Source: a virus. From it: a stretch of DNA of 20,957 nt. The notes below the pieces were generated by a model that saw nothing but the letters and a program-made list of their open reading frames with translations, was not told the DNA's origin and did not search any database. Each line of letters begins with the position of its first letter. The stretch's first letter is position 1. Shown here piece by piece: positions 1,687 through 20,957 of the stretch. Location of the stretch: positions 1 to 20,957 of IMG/VR virus record IMGVR_UViG_3300046001_003276; one strand, given 5' to 3'. Position numbers and translations under genes: made by a program.

Positions 1687-2302
1687 GATATTCAGAATAC
1701 ATTGCTCTCAAATCGGTAAGATAATGAGCAACGCAAAAACTAAAGGAGAATTGTCAGCAACCTGCAAAACATTCTTGATGGAGTGGTATGCAAATGACCG
1801 CGAACAAATACATTCCAAGTACATTATGAAAGGTAACTTAGTTGAGATTGACCTTATCGACTTTATGGCCGAGCAAATCGGACTTGGTATGGCTCAAAAG
1901 AATGAAGTAACCGTTCACAACGAATGGATGGTTGGAACGTGCGATGTTATAACGAATCACTTAATTGTTGATGTTAAGGCAGCGTGGTCTCGTAAAACAT
2001 TGCAACAACAAGCTATTGAGGGAATGAATAGCGATTACGAATGGCAAGGTCGCGGTTACATGGCACTTTATGAAAGACCTACGTTTATCGTGTTTCATGG
2101 CCTTATGAACACACCAGAGGAGGCGAATTACGAAGGAGAAGTTGTGTATGATGACTTACCGGATAACGAAAGATGGGTGGCTTATCAGGTGCAACGCGAT
2201 GTAACTATTGAGCAGTTAATTATTCAGCGCGTCATTCAATGTCGCGAATGGTTGGAGGAATATGATAAAAAAATGCTTGCGACTTTGGGAAAGATTCATT
2301 AA
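1679..2302 (+). CDS. PD-(D/E)XK exonuclease, YqaJ-like viral recombinase
   Basis: 207 residues with the order of active-site motifs of lambda-exonuclease/YqaJ-type nucleases: E56 in KGNLVEIDLI, D89 in GTCDVI, and D98-V-K100 in IVDVKAAW (the (D/E)xK signature), followed by a helix YEWQGRGYM (120-128) carrying the conserved Gln. Such enzymes resect double-stranded DNA ends for phage recombination, working with an SSB and an annealase. It overlaps the preceding gene by 8 nt. Its stop codon TAA (2300-2302) is part of a -7 promoter box for the structured RNA that follows. It is at the short end for YqaJ-like proteins. Cas4/RecB-like members share the fold, so the exact subfamily is less sure than the nuclease call. 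Confidence 0.82.
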   Translation: MDKIFRIHCSQIGKIMSNAKTKGELSATCKTFLMEWYANDREQIHSKYIMKGNLVEIDLIDFMAEQIGLGMAQKNEVTVHNEWMVGTCDVITNHLIVDVKAAWSRKTLQQQAIEGMNSDYEWQGRGYMALYERPTFIVFHGLMNTPEEANYEGEVVYDDLPDNERWVAYQVQRDVTIEQLIIQRVIQCREWLEEYDKKMLATLGKIH

Positions 2303-2307
2303 GTTTG
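2277..2307 (+). promoter_or_regulatory. Bacteroidota-type promoter for structured RNA 1
   Basis: TTG at 2277-2279, a 20-nt spacer, and TAAGTTTG at 2300-2307 fit TTG-N17-23-TAnnTTTG. The predicted transcription start is about 2311-2315, just before the first paired arm of the RNA at 2320. The box overlaps the stop codon of the nuclease gene. Confidence 0.6.
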
Positions 2308-2312
2308 CATTG

Positions 2313-2406
2313 TTGTTTCGGTTCGACACTAAAGAAACATAAACTTATTGGCCTATTTAATGGAGTGTAGAAGTCGAACCCTACACGAAATTAGATAGGC
2401 TTTTTT
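2313..2406 (+). ncRNA. Structured intergenic RNA 1 (small RNA or attenuator leader)
   Basis: Roughly 94 nt, from the predicted start to the end of a T6 run. Pairings seen: arm A GGTTCGAC (2320-2327) is perfectly complementary to A' GTCGAACC (2373-2380). B GCCTATTTAA (2351-2360) pairs over 10 bp, with one G-U, with B' TTAGATAGGC (2391-2400). C GTGTAG (2365-2370) pairs with C' CTACAC (2381-2386), leaving A' in its 10-nt loop. A to A' therefore crosses helix B and forms a pseudoknot, or competes with it. A T6 run follows B'. The next gene starts 13 nt after the T-run. It has its own promoter and terminator like a small-RNA gene, but could also be a 5' attenuator of the J-domain gene. No known RNA family was recognised. 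Confidence 0.55.
2351..2406 (+). terminator. Intrinsic terminator of structured RNA 1
   Basis: Ten-bp stem GCCTATTTAA/TTAGATAGGC (one G-U) enclosing a second 6-bp hairpin GTGTAG/CTACAC, followed directly by TTTTTT at 2401-2406. It is a strong terminator shape placed 13 nt before the ATG at 2420, so expression of the downstream gene from upstream promoters would need read-through or anti-termination. Confidence 0.65.
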
Positions 2407-2419
2407 AATTATTATAACT

Positions 2420-2701
2420 ATGAAATTCCCATTTGGAAAATTTAAAGGCACTTACATTGATGACATTGAAACAAGTTACCTTATTTATGCACTTGAAAAT
2501 TTTGATATAAATGAAGATTTGTCTGGTGCAATAAAATGTGAAATCGCATCAAGGTTTAATATAAATCCACCAACAGTTAAAAATGTAAATTTTAAAACAA
2601 TTTATTTAACTATGGCTAAAAGGTTTCATCCTGATAAGGGAGGAAGTAATGAAGCAATGCAAGCTATAAACGAATTTTATTATTTGTTATGCAACCAATA
2701 A
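2420..2701 (+). CDS. DUF3820-like / J-domain fusion protein, 93 aa
   Basis: Residues 1-46 (FPFGKFKGTYIDDIETSYLI...) match the small DUF3820 (QSregVF) pattern 'PFGKxKGxxxxDxPxxYLxW'. Residues 58-91 look like helices II-III of a J-domain: FKTIYLTMAKRFHPDKGGSN with the HPD tripeptide at 70-72, then EAMQAINEFYYLL. The HPDKGGS sequence is very like that of polyomavirus T antigen. J-domains stimulate the ATPase of Hsp70 (DnaK), so the protein could recruit host DnaK, for example to remodel a replication complex. Helix I is not obvious, so the domain may be minimal. It overlaps the primase gene by 13 nt. Base composition is visibly more AT-rich than the nuclease gene upstream, and structured RNA 1 sits directly before it, suggesting an inserted cassette. 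Confidence 0.7.
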   Translation: MKFPFGKFKGTYIDDIETSYLIYALENFDINEDLSGAIKCEIASRFNINPPTVKNVNFKTIYLTMAKRFHPDKGGSNEAMQAINEFYYLLCNQ

Positions 2702-3567
2702 CATTCAACTATTACGAAGCCGACATCAAACGTAGCACTCCACTTGGTAGTGTTACGCTTGAATATCTTATAAACGCTATTAGAACACCTAAAAAAGATA
2801 TCCGCAATGTATTTGAGGAGATAAGGATTGCAGAGGAAAATAAAGACATGGCTAAAAAACAAGCATTAAAGTCAAAACTATACTCGTTTACTCCATGTGT
2901 TTATGTTAACGGGCCGCGTAAGTATTCCAACATTCAACATTGGACTGGCTTACTTGTTTTAGACTTTGACCATTTAGCATCCGATGTGGCAGTTGAATTT
3001 AAAGAATATTTATTCAATGAATATAAATACATCATAACCGCGTGGCTATCGGCTTCAAGGCATGGTGTTCGCGCACTGGTTAAGATTCCGATTTGCACTT
3101 CGGTAGATGAATTCAAACAATACTATGCAGGAATTGAGCGACACCTTAACTGTTATAATGGGTTTGATACAGCACCAAAGAACTGCATACTACCAATGTT
3201 TATTAGTTACGATGCCGACATTCTACACAGAAACGATGCTCAAACTTGGTCAACAAAACATATTGAAATCGTTAGGCCTGCAGTAAAACAATATATTATT
3301 GATGACAAAACTTCTGTTATAGAAAAGATTATTTCAAAGCGTATTAATACCATAACCGATACTGGGCATATTATTTTACGTGCTACGAGTTACTTGCTCG
3401 GAGGTTATGTTGGCGCAAATTATATTGATTATAATGATGCCATTTCTTTAATCAATAACTTAATTGATTCGCAAAGCTACCTTTCTAAAAAGCCTGATGT
3501 GTATAAACAAACCGCAAAACAAATGGTGGATAAGGGTTTAAATTTTCCTACTTATTTATCTAAATAA
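2689..3567 (+). CDS. VirE_N / BT4734-like primase (PrimPol-type)
   Basis: 292 residues. The core WTGLLVLDFDHL (85-96) supplies the D92-x-D94 metal-binding pair, and SASRHGVRALVKI (121-133) supplies the S-x-x-H motif of the archaeo-eukaryotic primase/PrimPol fold, as in the VirE_N (BT4734-like) family common in Bacteroidota mobile elements. The N-terminal ~65 residues (EYLINAIRTPKKD) are typical of that family; the C-terminal ~90 residues are helical. In many Bacteroidota elements this domain is fused to a P-loop helicase domain; here the helicase is a separate gene at 3884. The protein probably makes primers at the phage origin. It overlaps the preceding gene by 13 nt. It is followed by structured RNA 2. 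Confidence 0.8.
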   Translation: MQPITFNYYEADIKRSTPLGSVTLEYLINAIRTPKKDIRNVFEEIRIAEENKDMAKKQALKSKLYSFTPCVYVNGPRKYSNIQHWTGLLVLDFDHLASDVAVEFKEYLFNEYKYIITAWLSASRHGVRALVKIPICTSVDEFKQYYAGIERHLNCYNGFDTAPKNCILPMFISYDADILHRNDAQTWSTKHIEIVRPAVKQYIIDDKTSVIEKIISKRINTITDTGHIILRATSYLLGGYVGANYIDYNDAISLINNLIDSQSYLSKKPDVYKQTAKQMVDKGLNFPTYLSK

Positions 3568-3569
3568 AT

Positions 3570-3599
3570 TTAGGAATTAAAAATATTTAATTATATTTG
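3570..3599 (+). promoter_or_regulatory. Putative promoter for structured RNA 2
   Basis: TATATTTG at 3592-3599 is a perfect TAnnTTTG box. TTAGGA at 3570-3575 lies 16 nt upstream; it is not the usual TTG but is the same hexamer found at 181-186. The predicted transcription start (about 3603-3606) coincides with the first base of the paired arm at 3604. Confidence 0.5.
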
Positions 3600-3603
3600 C
3601 ACC

Positions 3604-3705
3604 GCTTACTCACTTATGAAAATATTTAAAAATCCTATCATTCACATTGCCAATTGTTGCGACCGCAACGAGTGGGTAAGCCTTTGTGTTTGATAGGTAT
3701 TTTTT
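3604..3705 (+). ncRNA. Structured intergenic RNA 2 (related to RNA 1)
   Basis: About 100 nt in the 141-nt gap between primase and the 62-aa gene. Pairings: A GCTTACTCACTT (3604-3615) with A' GAGTGGGTAAGC (3670-3681), 12 bp including two G-U; hairpin C GTTGC-GACC-GCAAC (3656-3669), which abuts A' and could stack on it; B CCTATCA (3634-3640) with B' TGATAGG (3691-3697), followed by TATTTTTT. The order A-B-C-C'-A'-B' is a pseudoknot topology. RNA 1 shares the promoter-head, the CCTAT...ATAGG terminal stem, the T-run and the size. The T-run ends 3 nt before the next ATG. It may be a small RNA or a leader attenuator; no known family was recognised. Confidence 0.55.
3634..3705 (+). terminator. Intrinsic terminator of structured RNA 2
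   Basis: CCTATCA (3634-3640) and TGATAGG (3691-3697) form a 7-bp stem followed by TATTTTTT (3698-3705). The loop is long (50 nt) and holds the GTTGC/GCAAC hairpin and arm A', so efficiency may depend on folding of the inner part. ATG 3709 follows at once. Confidence 0.5.
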
Positions 3706-3708
3706 ATT

Positions 3709-3897
3709 ATGGAAAACCCAAAAACAAAAAAAGAAAGATTTGATTACTTTGCAGGATTAGCAATGCAAAGTTTTATTTCAAAAATGGAAGAAAGTTATAA
3801 AGATTTTGAAGAACTTGACATAGAAATTATATGTTTTGCTGCAAGAGAATTTGCTCAAGAAATGATAAAACAAATTGACGAAAATGAACAAATTTAA
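3709..3897 (+). CDS. Small acidic phage protein, 62 aa
   Basis: The pattern RFDYFAGLAMQSFISKM...EIICFAAREFAQEMIKQ resembles short helical proteins found in many phages with a 'DYFAxxAMQ' motif and a C-terminal 'A..yADAmi' helix; I know of no function for that group. No membrane segment or cysteine motif is present. Its ATG is only 3 nt beyond the T-run of structured RNA 2, so ribosome access and transcription may be tied to folding of that RNA. It overlaps the helicase gene by 14 nt, which would couple their translation. Confidence 0.65.
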   Translation: MENPKTKKERFDYFAGLAMQSFISKMEESYKDFEELDIEIICFAAREFAQEMIKQIDENEQI

Positions 3898-5440
3898 GAA
3901 ACCCGAAAAGAATTCAATCTACAATCCAATAGATTGGTTTAACGAATTTGGAACGATGCAACAAATATTTGAGGGCGATAAAAAATGTATTTCGTTTTCA
4001 GAAACTGAAGCAACATATCCAGTTAGTGATGCAAGTGATTTGTCTAAAAGTCCTAATTTTATTTTAAATAAAAACGGAAAGATTGACATTAAGAAGTCAA
4101 ACCCATTTGATTTAGCAACTGGACAAAGCTTCAGTAAATTTATTTTACTTACAACAGTAAAATTTAAAGGCGATTACTTTCAAGCAATGAGTCACGTTTC
4201 TTACAATATAATGCAAAACGAAATACCTTACATTCGCGTTGGCTCCGATTATTTTAAAGTAATTAAAAAAGATGACCGCTATTCAGGAACTAATGTTATT
4301 TTAAAGTCTTGGAAAAAAGATGAAATAAAAGAAGATCATACGAAAAATATACTTTGCAAAATTTATAAGTTTGATGACTTCACAATTATTCCTAATAATG
4401 TGACTTTTATTCCATCTAAAAACAACTGCTATAATTTGTATGCCAAATTCCCACATACAAAATTTAGTGATACTGTTTACACCAATGACATTAGTGTTAC
4501 ACTTGGTTTGTTAAGTCACATATTTGGTGAGCAGTTAGAATTAGGTTTGAAGTACATGAAGTTACTTTATGAGTATCCTTGTCAAATATTGCCAGTGCTT
4601 TCGTTAGTTTCAACTGAAAGAGAAACAGGTAAGACTACTTTTTTAAATTATATTCAGATGTTATTTGGCGAAAATTCAACACTTATCAATCCAAGTGACT
4701 TAATGAGTAGCTTTAACGATGCTTATGCCACAAAGAATATAATTATGATTGATGAAACCGTAATTGAAAAGCAACACGTTGTTGAAAAACTTAAATCGTT
4801 GGCAACTGCAAAAACTATTTCAGTATCGCAAAAGTTTGTGCAACATTACAGCGTTCCATTCTTTGGTAAAATTATCGTTTGCACAAATAAGGAAACCGAT
4901 TTTATGCGAATTGATGACGAAGAAATTCGCTTTTGGATTAGGAAAATAAACCCAATCGTTGGCAAAAAAAATACAAACATTGAAAATGATTTGTTTAACG
5001 AGATACCTAAATTCCTAAAATATTTAGAACAACTGCCTGATATTGACTTTTCAAATTCGCGCATGGTATTCACGCAGGAAGAAATACAAACTGATTCGCT
5101 GGAGCTTATCAAAAAAGAAAGTAAAAACGGATTGAGAAAAGAACTTGAAATATACATTGATGACTTTTTTAACAATAACGATGTAAATGAGTTTGAAGCA
5201 ACTGCAAAAGATATTAAAGAAAGGTGGTTTGACAAAGAAAGAGAAAAGATGTCTTACATCCTTAAAGTGCTTAAAAATGAAATGAAAATGACACCACAAC
5301 CGAATAAGTATTATTTTCCATTTAATAGCAATAATTACCTTGAAAAAAAGAAAGGCACTCCGTTTCTATTTGTGAGGGAAAATACTCAAACCGTTCAAAA
5401 TGAATCTTATAGCGATTATGAAAACAGACAACCATATTAA
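3884..5440 (+). CDS. SF3-like (VirE / DUF5906-type) replicative helicase
   Basis: 518 residues from ATG 3884; the frame also allows TTG 3875, but an ATG three codons on is more likely. The C-terminal half has an ATPase core: Walker A STERETGKTT (243-252, K250), Walker B IIMIDE (286-291), a sensor-like GKIIVCTN (328-335) and an arginine-finger candidate in EEIRFWIRK (R349). This spacing is that of superfamily 3 helicases used by phages, plasmids and VirE-type elements. The N-terminal ~200 residues have no motif I recognise and may bind DNA or the primase. The partner primase is encoded at 2689. The gene overlaps the 62-aa gene by 14 nt and is followed by the repeat-rich candidate origin, which it could unwind. 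Confidence 0.8.
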   Translation: MNKFKKPEKNSIYNPIDWFNEFGTMQQIFEGDKKCISFSETEATYPVSDASDLSKSPNFILNKNGKIDIKKSNPFDLATGQSFSKFILLTTVKFKGDYFQAMSHVSYNIMQNEIPYIRVGSDYFKVIKKDDRYSGTNVILKSWKKDEIKEDHTKNILCKIYKFDDFTIIPNNVTFIPSKNNCYNLYAKFPHTKFSDTVYTNDISVTLGLLSHIFGEQLELGLKYMKLLYEYPCQILPVLSLVSTERETGKTTFLNYIQMLFGENSTLINPSDLMSSFNDAYATKNIIMIDETVIEKQHVVEKLKSLATAKTISVSQKFVQHYSVPFFGKIIVCTNKETDFMRIDDEEIRFWIRKINPIVGKKNTNIENDLFNEIPKFLKYLEQLPDIDFSNSRMVFTQEEIQTDSLELIKKESKNGLRKELEIYIDDFFNNNDVNEFEATAKDIKERWFDKEREKMSYILKVLKNEMKMTPQPNKYYFPFNSNNYLEKKKGTPFLFVRENTQTVQNESYSDYENRQPY

Positions 5441-5715
5441 TAGTAATGTTTTTTCTAAAAGTCTTTTCTATATTAAACTATTGATTACTAATTATTTAGA
5501 AAAAAATAGAAATAGAAAAGGTATTTGGCAAACTACTACAAAAAATATTATCAATAATAATAATAGGAATAGTTTTAGCCATTTACCTCTTTCTTTTTTC
5601 TATATATATATAAAATATAGTAGTAGTAAGGGTTATAGCTTAGAAAAGACTTAGAAAAGTTATTAGAAAAGACTTAGAAAAAAATTACGTTTTCTATAAA
5701 TTATAAATTAACAAT
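5441..5715 (+). other. AT-rich non-coding region, candidate replication origin
   Basis: 275 nt with no convincing gene. The motif TAGAAAA or its complement TTTTCTA occurs about ten times: + at 5497, 5513, 5641, 5652, 5664, 5675; - at 5451, 5463, 5596, 5690. There is also an alternating AT stretch (TATATATATATAAAA, 5601-5615) that could melt easily. It lies just after primase and helicase genes. Repeated short sites plus an AT-rich melting zone next to replication genes are the usual makeup of a phage or plasmid origin. A regulatory role (operators for a phage regulator) is the main alternative. An open frame of 84 codons across the first part is low-complexity Asn/Lys/Ser-rich and is not taken as a gene. 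Confidence 0.5.
5640..5681 (+). repeat. Phased iteron-like direct repeats
   Basis: A perfect 19-bp repeat TTAGAAAAGACTTAGAAAA occurs at 5640-5658 and 5663-5681. Each copy holds two TTAGAAAA units, so the unit starts at 5640, 5651, 5663 and 5674, spacing 11, 12 and 11 bp, about one helical turn. Inverted copies TTTTCTA occur at 5451 and 5463 (12 bp apart). This arrangement suits cooperative binding of a protein along one DNA face, as with initiator iterons. Confidence 0.7.
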
Positions 5716-6246
5716 ATGAAAATTTACACAATCCCCGAATTCGAACTATATTACCACAACCAATACAAACGGTCAAACATGGCTCAGGCGTTTTGGAACA
5801 CATTACCGATTGAGCGATTTAACCTCAACAAAAAGAAAGTAGTTAAGAAGCGCAAAGCGGAGCTCACGACAAACCATTTAGACTTGCCAGTAAACAATGT
5901 TATCCAACCGAAAGAAACCAAAGATGCTTTTAATACTAATAAGTTTACTGACCTTATTATTGCCTACCTTAAATCAGTACACAGTTGCAATAGTGCAAGG
6001 CGCATCAGTAGTGAGGGCAGATATCGAAAAGGTATTGGTTACATTGCAGGATTGAACAAAGGCATGGAGGATATCCAGTGCATATTGAAAGGCCGATTGT
6101 TTGCGATTGAGGTTAAATCCGAAAGTGACCGAATGGGAGAAGCACAATTAAAACGTAAAGCATCAATAGAAGCCGATGGAGGTCATTACATTATTGCTAC
6201 ATCGTTTGAGCAGTTGCAAACGGAATTATTGAGCATATTAAAATAA
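5716..6246 (+). CDS. VRR-NUC domain nuclease
   Basis: 176 residues. The C-terminal ~95 residues fit the VRR-NUC (PD-(D/E)XK) fold of phage nucleases: GMEDIQCILKGRLFAIEVKS with D119 and E132-V-K134, then the conserved Gln in GEAQLKRKASIEADGGHYII (Q144), then SFEQL. VRR-NUC proteins are structure-specific nucleases, often proposed as phage Holliday-junction resolvases. The N-terminal ~75 residues are basic (KKKVVKKRKAEL, 40-50) and not part of that domain; they may bind DNA. Stand-alone phage VRR-NUC proteins are usually near 100-140 aa, so this one has an extension. It follows the candidate origin and precedes the late promoter, so it could resolve branched DNA before packaging. Confidence 0.82.
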   Translation: MKIYTIPEFELYYHNQYKRSNMAQAFWNTLPIERFNLNKKKVVKKRKAELTTNHLDLPVNNVIQPKETKDAFNTNKFTDLIIAYLKSVHSCNSARRISSEGRYRKGIGYIAGLNKGMEDIQCILKGRLFAIEVKSESDRMGEAQLKRKASIEADGGHYIIATSFEQLQTELLSILK

Positions 6247-6258
6247 TACTTATCTTTG
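6229..6258 (+). promoter_or_regulatory. Probable late (structural operon) promoter
   Basis: TTG at 6229-6231, a 19-nt spacer and TATCTTTG at 6251-6258 match the Bacteroidota consensus very closely. The -33 box lies in the end of the VRR-NUC gene. The predicted start of transcription falls at about 6262-6265, essentially on the ATG at 6263, so the first virion gene may be read from a leaderless mRNA. Confidence 0.65.
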
Positions 6259-6262
6259 TGGT

Positions 6263-6619
6263 ATGAAAGCCGATGACAAAACGACCAAAAAACGACCTCA
6301 AAAACTATTTAAAGGCGATGAGGGTGTTAAGTTTAGCAAAGACAATCAACCACCGCCTGAAAACAAAAGCAAAGGATGGGAGGCAAGGCGCGCGGAAAGG
6401 TTATTGACTCAAAAGATTATTGAAAAGTTAACGGGCGCCAATAATTTAGAGGACTATGTCGATAGCCTTTTTAACAACGCAAAGATGGGCAATGCTAAAG
6501 CCATTGACACATTGAATAACGGAATAGAGGAGCAAATAACCAAAACCGAAACAACTATCACCGACAACCGCCCACCATCAACGGTTACGATGCCTGATGG
6601 AACTAAGATTGAAATTTAA
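6263..6619 (+). CDS. Putative terminase small subunit, 118 aa
   Basis: The call rests mainly on position: directly before the large terminase, with overlapping stop and start (TAATG, 6617-6621). The N-terminus is Lys-rich (KADDKTTKKRPQKLFKG) and has VKFSKDNQPPPENKSKGWEARRAER, like the 'FxkGqsgNPkGRP' lead of DUF5681-type phage proteins that precede terminases. A central helical part (LLTQKIIEKLTG...YVDSLFNNAKMGNAKAIDTLNNGIEEQ) could form the oligomer, and the C-terminus is Thr/Pro-rich. The role would be recognition of phage DNA and handing it to TerL. No clear HTH is seen. It sits a few bases from a strong promoter, which makes it the first gene of the virion operon. Confidence 0.6.
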   Translation: MKADDKTTKKRPQKLFKGDEGVKFSKDNQPPPENKSKGWEARRAERLLTQKIIEKLTGANNLEDYVDSLFNNAKMGNAKAIDTLNNGIEEQITKTETTITDNRPPSTVTMPDGTKIEI

Positions 6620-20079: not shown

Positions 20080-20957
20080 ATGGCAATATTAGCTGATACA
20101 ATTAAAAAATTACTTACTAAAGCGGGTTTTGACCTTAACTCTGAAACATATAGACAACTTATAGGCATCAAAGAACTTGTTGCTGAAATACCTGATGAGG
20201 TGGACCAATCATTGACAACTCTTATGAGTGCTAATGAGGCCAAGAATAACATCGACATTAAGAAACATTTTAAAGCCGAGGCACTTGATCCGTTTAACAA
20301 TAAAGTTTCAACGTGGTTAAAGGACAACGGTGCTGATGATGACACTATCAAACTGATTACTGATGACCCTAACACCTATAACAAAGTTGAGGTTGCAATT
20401 AAGAAGATTGCTGAATTGAAATCAAAGCAAGTTGATGGCAAAGGCGATAAGGCAGAACTTGAACGTAAGATTAACGAACTAAGCGCACAACTATCAAAGG
20501 CTGCAACGGATGCCGCAAACGAAAAGCAAAGTGCTATTGATGCGATTGTTGCTAAGTATGATGGCGAGTTTACAGAGATGGAGATTAATCGCATCATTTC
20601 ATCTAAAAAGTTGCCCGGGCAGTTTGGTTTGGATGTTGAAAGTAAGATTGCGCGTGAGTTTTTGAATAAGAAACTTGCCGAGAAAAGTGCTGCCATAAAA
20701 AAAATTGATGGAAAATTAAAATTAGTTGCAAAAGATGATGATAAAATGCTTATCTTTGACAACGGAAAGGAACTCGACCTTGACACTCTCACAGATATGG
20801 CCTTGGCCGACAATAAGTTTTTGAAAGTATCTGACAACGGAGGCGGTATGCCACCTAAGTCGCCACAGAGCCCACAAAGCTCATCTAAACCATCTGCCGC
20901 GGCAGCCAACGCTTTAAGCGACTTAGAAATCGCATTGCAAGGTTTCGGGCAGAAATA
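20080..20957 (+). CDS. Scaffold-like capsid assembly protein (truncated by or ending at window edge)
   Basis: The frame is open from ATG 20080 to the edge, 292 codons plus a final TA, so the stop may be cut by one base. The protein is highly charged and helical, with a coiled-coil centre (ELERKINELSAQLSKAATDAANEKQ, about residues 126-150, in shorter parts), then a beta segment (KLKLVAKDDDKMLIFDNG) and a low-complexity Pro/Gln/Ser region before the end. This arrangement and the position after portal and MuF-like genes match phage scaffolding proteins (gp20/DUF4355-like) that precede the major capsid gene. The leader ATAAACAAAATG is A-rich as elsewhere. A capsid protein with an N-terminal delta domain is the less likely alternative. 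Confidence 0.65.
   Translation, partial: MAILADTIKKLLTKAGFDLNSETYRQLIGIKELVAEIPDEVDQSLTTLMSANEAKNNIDIKKHFKAEALDPFNNKVSTWLKDNGADDDTIKLITDDPNTYNKVEVAIKKIAELKSKQVDGKGDKAELERKINELSAQLSKAATDAANEKQSAIDAIVAKYDGEFTEMEINRIISSKKLPGQFGLDVESKIAREFLNKKLAEKSAAIKKIDGKLKLVAKDDDKMLIFDNGKELDLDTLTDMALADNKFLKVSDNGGGMPPKSPQSPQSSSKPSAAAANALSDLEIALQGFGQK
20726..20758 (+). promoter_or_regulatory. Possible internal promoter in the scaffold-like gene
   Basis: TTG (20726-20728), 22-nt spacer, TATCTTTG (20751-20758). The -7 box is the same octamer as in the late promoter at 6251. It would transcribe the gene just beyond the window, expected to be the major capsid gene. The spacer is at the long end and the site is within coding DNA, so it may be chance. 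Confidence 0.3.

Follow-up and report, generated by a model that had tools for sequence, protein, structure and literature searches.

Two short segments on the plus strand of a viral DNA of 20,957 bases (IMG/VR record IMGVR_UViG_3300046001_003276, hereafter the window), which carries genes for SSB-like, exonuclease, BT4734-like and DUF5906/primase-like proteins among others, raise the question of what kind of RNA they encode and what such an RNA would do directly ahead of a gene. A first-pass annotation, made from the letters alone, had proposed that these segments, RNA1 (2314..2406) and RNA2 (3604..3705), are pseudoknotted RNAs headed by a promoter and closed by a terminator. Our analysis confirmed that both are structured, pseudoknotted RNAs lying where that annotation had placed them and pairing as it had drawn, and a promoter-like box and a terminator-like end were supported by the sequence of each. 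Furthermore, RNA1 and RNA2 belong to a wider class comprising five recurring types, of which they represent types T1 and T2, and two single examples.

RNA1 contains four helices, D, A/A', B and C, of which D is an addition to the first-pass model. Hairpin D (2314-2319 with 2334-2339) presents arm A, GGTTCGAC (2320..2327), in its loop, and this arm pairs over 8 bp with A' (2373-2380), which hairpin C (2365-2370 with 2381-2386) carries in its loop. Since A sits in the D loop and A' in the C loop, A/A' constitutes a loop-loop kissing contact. Hairpin C is enclosed by the terminator-like stem B (2351-2361 with 2390-2400, 11 bp), which together with a run of six T (2401..2406) forms an end resembling an intrinsic terminator, and the next ATG lies at 2420. 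RNA2 is an H-type pseudoknot with an inner hairpin, in which arm A (3604..3614) pairs with A' (3671-3681) and thereby crosses the terminator-like stem B (3634-3640 with 3691-3697); the small hairpin C (3656-3660 with 3665-3669) lies inside, and the T-run (3700-3705) is followed by an ATG at 3709. Both are preceded by a TAnnTTTG box, namely TAAGTTTG (2300..2307) for RNA1, overlapping the stop codon of the exonuclease (2300-2302), and TATATTTG (3592..3599) for RNA2, which we take to be the -7 consensus of Bacteroidota.

In order to assess these helices, relatives were gathered through a pair of protein searches and an element pattern, which yielded viral contigs, most of them sharing the gene neighborhood. 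For T1, 19 distinct sequences, including that of the window, were compared over the 31 pairs of the four helices, giving 589 cells; these rows are related (three main alleles and two rare ones), so that independent changes are fewer than cells. Pairing was retained in 97.6% of the cells, as compared with 31-48% when the partners were slid by 1-3 columns, and 16 of the 31 pairs had changed on both sides. In particular, A/A' was whole in 19/19 sequences with both-side changes at four of its eight pairs, and such changes were found at 6/11 pairs of stem B (one B pair being unpaired in 12/19) and at 5/6 pairs of hairpin C. All six pairs of hairpin D were whole in 19/19, with a both-side change at one pair (two sequences); because the pattern used for collection fixed part of D, along with three of the eight letters of A, covariation in D is weak evidence, whereas A', B, C and five letters of A were left free. 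Two further contigs, L120 and L129, were omitted from the count since their 3' half had been shifted by MAFFT, though their A/A' was exact and their B stems were strong. Further pair types were no more numerous than in the control, their number being reached in 429/500 shuffles for T1 and 240/500 for T2.

As this collecting pattern was blind to A', it served as an independent prediction: it retrieved 53 T1 sites, three of which were cut by contig ends, and an exact A' was found in all 50 complete sites. These sites were distributed among five alleles of arm A, GGTTCGAC (21), GGTCTCAC (14), GATTCCAC (13), GCTCTCAC (1) and GGTTCAAC (1), and the partner of another allele was encountered in 0/200 trials of a swapped-allele control. 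As the alleles vary in sequence while the pairing stays, selection acts on the RNA fold. Between the covarying stems, T1 also retains conserved unpaired letters (ACATTA, AACATAA and GAAG), for which RNA polymerase, a protein or the element's own helices are possible contacts.

The five sequences compared for T2 gave the same picture: all 114 cells were paired, and 8 of the 23 pairs had changed on both sides, including three in A/A' (11/11 pairs in 5/5 sequences), 3/7 in stem B and 2/5 in hairpin C. The misaligned contig L200 (A/A' of 13 bp) was omitted from this count, and L214, a match to the T2 pattern devoid of both box and A', was discarded. Compensatory changes in A/A' and B/B' were thus present among the relatives, so that the proposal withstood the check for their absence that the first-pass annotation had named as refuting it, and the impression that structure is kept more than sequence held for both T1 and T2. 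The same annotation had left open a pseudoknot or a switch; the pseudoknot part is borne out by covariation, and the either-or switch between A/A' and B/B' found no support, since the two helices share no base (base sharing was compared, not steric fit). A nested rival fold of RNA2 was fully paired in 2/5 sequences, as against 5/5 for A/A'. A leader-peptide attenuator was also considered for RNA2, which contains a 25-codon open reading frame (ORF; MKIFKNP..., 3617-3694), and was rejected, since L216 and L218 have a broken frame and L109 an internal stop.

Whether RNA1 and RNA2 form one family by descent, as first proposed, is a different matter. Their topology differs, A' lying within the C loop in RNA1 and behind the C hairpin in RNA2, and a model built on RNA1 gave no match to RNA2 on the plus strand in an unfiltered search with E up to 10. 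A common ancestor was therefore rejected as an explanation, with the proviso that descent at great distance is possible, and the two are best described as members of one structural class rather than as an established family. The CCTAT...ATAGG bases that had been taken as common to both turned out to be allele-specific, the relatives having GCCCG, GCCTG, GCCCTTA or ACCCA (RNA1) and CCCAT (RNA2), and this resemblance looks like chance.

Chance was also evaluated by folding and scanning. Nested folding alone gave z values of -4.1 for RNA1 and -4.6 for RNA2, with 0/200 shuffles as good. When the window was scanned for crossing helices followed by a T-run, RNA1 and RNA2 were the top two of 34 matches (-34.2 and -33.6), and none of ten first-order resamples reached these scores, albeit by a small margin (best -32.4); the number of matches was not raised (34 versus 37-54 in the resamples). 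Folding and the window scan alone thus make a modest case, and the weight lies in the covariation of the relatives. A wider scan, run after removal of duplicates and set against five first-order resamples, took in 761 kb from these contigs and related ones. At scores of -28 or lower, 36/68 matches carried the box (30 distinct sequences), as compared with 3/180 in the resamples; an earlier scan, in which some contigs were held twice and one resample was used, had given 39/72 versus 1/27. Three of the 23 distinct boxed matches with an ATG listed from that earlier scan (L205, L177 and L203 near 3472; -24 to -25.5) fit no type and are probably chance.

The wider class was delineated from these searches. 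Besides T1 and T2, it includes T3, recognized by ACC(C)GCCAA, T4, with an arm A of GATTCAC or GATTGAC and extra hairpins, and T5, with GTAGGAG, whose A/A' was invariant in the copies seen. The single examples are T6 (GTTGCGGC, in L217, score -26.9) and the boxless T2b in L200. The comparison of T3, T4, T5 and T6 was made solely by eye, and T6 and T2b are each known from a single contig. By this inspection, the layout of two kissing hairpins is common to T1, T5 and T6, and an inner hairpin carries A' in its loop in T3 and T4 as well. In G009, the T1 model gave a weak match (E 0.034) that coincides with a T4 element. The T6 element, on the minus strand of L217 near 9432, has a box, a hairpin GTGG...CCAC with GTTGCGGC in its loop, and the partner GCCGCAAC; the start of the ORF behind it resembles that of a BT4734-like ORF found behind T3. 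L200, a distant relative, carries two T2-like elements (2067-2167 and 6198-6301) with outer helices of 13 bp and 11 bp, the first preceding an ORF with a below-cut-off ParB match and the second being without a TAnnTTTG box.

The offset of the box is nearly constant within a type: an exact box was found at 40/48 distinct T1 sites (38 at offset -15 and two at -13) and at 9/9 distinct T2 sites (eight at -12 and one at -13), the corresponding counts being 13/13 for T4, 10/10 for T5, 5/9 for T3 and 0/2 for T2b. At the 3' end, a start codon lies 4-21 nt past the matched T's, and a same-strand ATG ORF of at least 30 amino acids within 70 nt behind was found for 89 of 90 distinct combinations of element and gene, the one exception being cut by a contig end. 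Such an ORF lay behind 901/3914 of the T-runs at large in the same contigs.

These arrangements bear on the possibility that the elements are free-standing small-RNA genes, whose terminated RNA of about 95 nt would act in trans on a host protein or RNA, the following gene being incidental. Such genes would be expected to look much like what was found, in that each element has its own promoter-like box and terminator-like end, 28 of the 38 whole records had exactly one match to the T1 model at E 4e-4 or better, the unpaired conserved letters recall RNAs that are recognized by a partner, and an element may be present or absent at one site among related contigs. The position on the same strand close ahead of the next gene in nearly every combination, with similar distances to unrelated start codons, argues against an incidental neighbor, as does the primase locus described below, where a T4 terminator would cut off the primase unless it is read through. 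We therefore consider free-standing small-RNA genes possible yet doubtful.

The elements and the genes behind them are combined in many ways. One and the same ORF was found with different types ahead, a KSPSGK ORF behind T1 or T3 and a 62-amino-acid ORF behind T2 or T4, and one type was found ahead of many genes, including those for HNH endonucleases, C5 and N6/N4 DNA methylases, DUF6291 and BT4734-like proteins. Of ten proteins behind elements that were searched against Pfam, seven had a match (E up to 0.01), among which that to ParB_N fell below the curated cut-off, and three were unmatched. T1 was located behind the exonuclease gene at 55 of 63 loci, T3 at seven and none at one (L086), these being loci rather than contigs, some of which were counted twice. 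Furthermore, T1 or T2 occurred in contigs that resembled the window in protein sequence slightly or not at all over the stretches compared (none for L129; one match each for L120, L216 and L218, at 25%, 38% and 38% identity). Types and downstream genes recombine freely, and horizontal movement of the elements is supported by the T1 elements of L046 and L024 described below. In L090, L216, L217 and L218, T2 lies directly ahead of ORFs for HNH endonucleases, assigned by Pfam for the first two and by likeness for the others, and in L218 it stands behind an ORF that by eye resembles a tyrosine recombinase; T2 and the HNH endonuclease ORF might move together.

Such mobility raises the question of whether the elements are retained chiefly as recombination joints, that is, linker sequences that let phages swap neighboring genes. 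The T1 elements of L046 and L024 are 99% identical and adjoin exonucleases that are only 55% identical, and different genes follow the same element elsewhere, as a joint would predict; recombination, however, needs matching sequence, yet the alleles diverge with pairing retained. We consider it very improbable that joining is the chief reason for their retention.

The most informative locus for function is that of the primase. The BT4734-like gene was found in 46 contigs, 40 of which were readable through to the primase. In these 40 contigs, the interval consisted of an element-free gap of 8-16 nt in 17, T4 alone in seven, T4 followed by the 62-amino-acid ORF in ten, and T2 followed by the same ORF in six. 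In the seven contigs with T4 alone, only 14-18 nt separate the T's from the primase ORF, which leaves little room for a further promoter, so that the primase mRNA would need to pass the terminator. The terminators thus seem to be leaky or conditional, with read-through apparently required for the primase, and this arrangement is the best argument that they act in cis; alternatively, a start site for the primase may be hidden within the T4 element itself.

That the elements terminate transcription, rather than merely shield an mRNA, is also suggested by their surroundings. A 5' stabilizer or insulator, which would protect the leader and set a clean start site with termination unaffected, would account for a structure that begins near the predicted 5' end and for its use by many unrelated genes. 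The T-run right behind the closing stem, however, resembles termination, and so do the T-rich start regions: the 20 nt ahead of the ATG comprise 60% T behind RNA1 and 65% T behind RNA2, as compared with 10-50% (mean about 25%) ahead of 16 chosen element-free genes of the window, which are mostly A-rich there, and such T-richness fits termination rather than a plain leader. We regard a stabilizing role as improbable.

Considering all these features, the best reading is that the elements are horizontally moving leader cassettes that act in cis as leaky or regulated terminators, and we regard this proposal, drawn from comparative analysis, as evenly balanced between right and wrong. A cassette would comprise a host-type promoter, a compact pseudoknotted RNA starting a few nt past the -7 box, an intrinsic terminator to which the 3' stem of that same RNA gives rise, and the short start region of the gene behind. 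Host RNA polymerase would start at the box or arrive from upstream; the 5' arm A would be presented (in the D loop in the case of RNA1), and A' would pair with it upon emerging. Stem B and the T-run would then halt part of the polymerases, giving an RNA of about 95 nt, while the remainder, a fixed or regulated fraction, would read through into the mRNA of the gene behind. A/A' might set the level of read-through, and an inducing factor might modulate it. Such a cassette would be generic, being swapped between unrelated genes and between phages. If this cis-acting role is true, phages of this group would bring newly acquired genes under regulation through a plug-in RNA cassette, with implications for the way in which mosaic genomes control imported genes.

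Several findings weigh against leader cassettes of this kind. The exact box was missing at 8/48 distinct T1 sites, 4/9 T3 sites and 2/2 T2b sites (the T1 and T3 cases being one letter off by eye). Where co-directional genes are packed into a compact phage genome, nearness to a start codon is in part to be expected, an effect that the T-run control (901/3914) does not remove. Weak crossing-helix matches were fewer in real (420) than in random sequence (466-507). No terminator/antiterminator alternative was visible, T1 and further alternatives not having been searched and an antitermination factor not having been sought systematically. Lastly, the four cultured relatives described below, which have the same replication genes, gave no convincing element.

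A bolder formulation would regard the elements as a new mobile class of phage RNA, in which interchangeable allelic pseudoknot terminators of the kissing-loop or H type cross unrelated phages and genes as units of about 100 nt, place the following gene under common control, possibly through a phage- or host-encoded antitermination signal, and confer RNA-level specificity between co-infecting phages through their alleles; we consider it rather unlikely that this holds in full. What was observed is a well-supported class of structured RNA in which a loop-loop contact covaries from allele to allele with unusual clarity, and it would offer natural terminator parts for Bacteroidota.

We next compared the elements with known systems. 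As the first-pass annotation had suggested should be checked, Rfam 15 was searched: it gave no match for RNA1 or RNA2, the only matches in the window being two to snoRNAs near 20332-20392 (E 0.97 and 2.4), and no match at E up to 0.5 was obtained in L120, L129, L216, L217 and L218 (T1, T2 and T6) or L180 (T3, T4 and T5). The PeSLs of T4-type phages are mobile promoter/stem-loop cassettes that recur ahead of different genes in swapped modules. Set beside this description, the present elements are alike in being short units of promoter and stem-loop recurring ahead of different genes, the same cassette being found ahead of unrelated genes and in divergent phages; they differ in being pseudoknotted, covarying and T-run-ended, in falling into several types of unlike sequence and in residing in phages of probable Bacteroidota hosts. 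In the UpxY system of Bacteroides and the put RNAs of HK022, read-through is controlled by a leader RNA that lies between the promoter and the gene. The present elements share this siting, with a stem and then a T-run between the promoter-like box and the start codon as in an attenuator leader, but no NusG-like partner or antiterminating activity is evident for them. The RNAs of type III toxin-antitoxin systems are likewise small phage-borne pseudoknots, occurring as tandem repeats beside a toxin gene, whereas T1 gave one match per record and had no constant gene behind it. No description of such elements was found among the literature matches listed. Candidate structured RNAs of viruses and phages have also been surveyed in work outside those matches, where some of the elements may already be listed. 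In kind, then, structured leader/terminator cassettes are already known, and the present elements would appear to be new within that kind.

The start-associated sequences (SAS) and ESAS of cluster K mycobacteriophages are repeated sites just ahead of the start codons of many unrelated genes, like the present elements; ESAS have imperfect 17-bp inverted repeats, the function being unknown, and a genome contains the same SAS/ESAS sequence in many copies, for which a role in initiating translation has been proposed (PMC3203893). The elements here differ from that account in having one T1 copy per record, a promoter-like box, crossing helices and a T-run, and inspection by eye of the interval from T-run to ATG in both window elements did not reveal the 13-bp start-associated sequence given there, GGGATAGGAGCCC. 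The HMP-PP/thiS motif forms a pseudoknot around or beside an intrinsic terminator in a leader (PMC6478431), a feature that it shares with the elements here. The fluoride and preQ1 riboswitches have this feature in common with them as well. Unlike such terminator-embedded riboswitches, the present elements precede unrelated genes, with no ligand or alternative fold evident; the restriction of the HMP-PP (thiS) riboswitch to one pathway has no counterpart behind T1, T2 and T5, where unrelated genes were found.

As for the host, the BT4734-like protein has its nearest named relatives in Cellulophaga and Flavobacterium phages (41-43% identity), and a Bacteroidota host is probable because of these relatives and the TAnnTTTG box. 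Four cultured relatives found by protein, Cellulophaga phages phi18:1 and phi17:1 and Flavobacterium phages FPSV-S1 and lotta8-1, were scanned. Two boxed matches were set aside by eye: that of phi18:1 near 21838 falls inside a gene, and that of FPSV-S1 (L222) near 32215 is a strong stem with a T-run in an intergenic gap of about 310 nt, whose box overlaps A and which was judged a plain terminator. As no convincing element was left in these phages, the class is patchy. A blastn search of named phages gave no match to the 4-kb region or to single copies of T1, T2, T5, T4 and T3. In bacterial genomes, where the search covered T1 only, the pattern matched five genome contigs, which were dismissed as chance, since the T1 model gave E no better than 0.3 and the downstream fold was absent by eye.

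The genes behind the two window elements are small. The ORF directly behind RNA1 (2420..2701, plus strand, 93 amino acids) contains an HPDKGG motif and is presumably J-domain-like; its one PHROG match, to a function-unknown family, covers residues 54-90. RNA2 is followed by the 62-amino-acid ORF (3709..3897, plus strand) that stands behind T4 in other contigs. Next to it, the primase (3875-5440) occurs in two divergent versions, which occupy one position in contigs that are otherwise alike, complete copies being about 62-68% or 94-100% identical to that of the window, as in a swapped module. Between the primase and a 176-amino-acid nuclease-like gene lies a very AT-rich stretch of about 275 nt (5441-5715) with repeats such as aaaagacttagaaaa, which is possibly a replication origin; in FPSV-S1 and lotta8-1, gaps of 245 and 298 nt separate the primase/VirE-like genes from the VRR-NUC genes.

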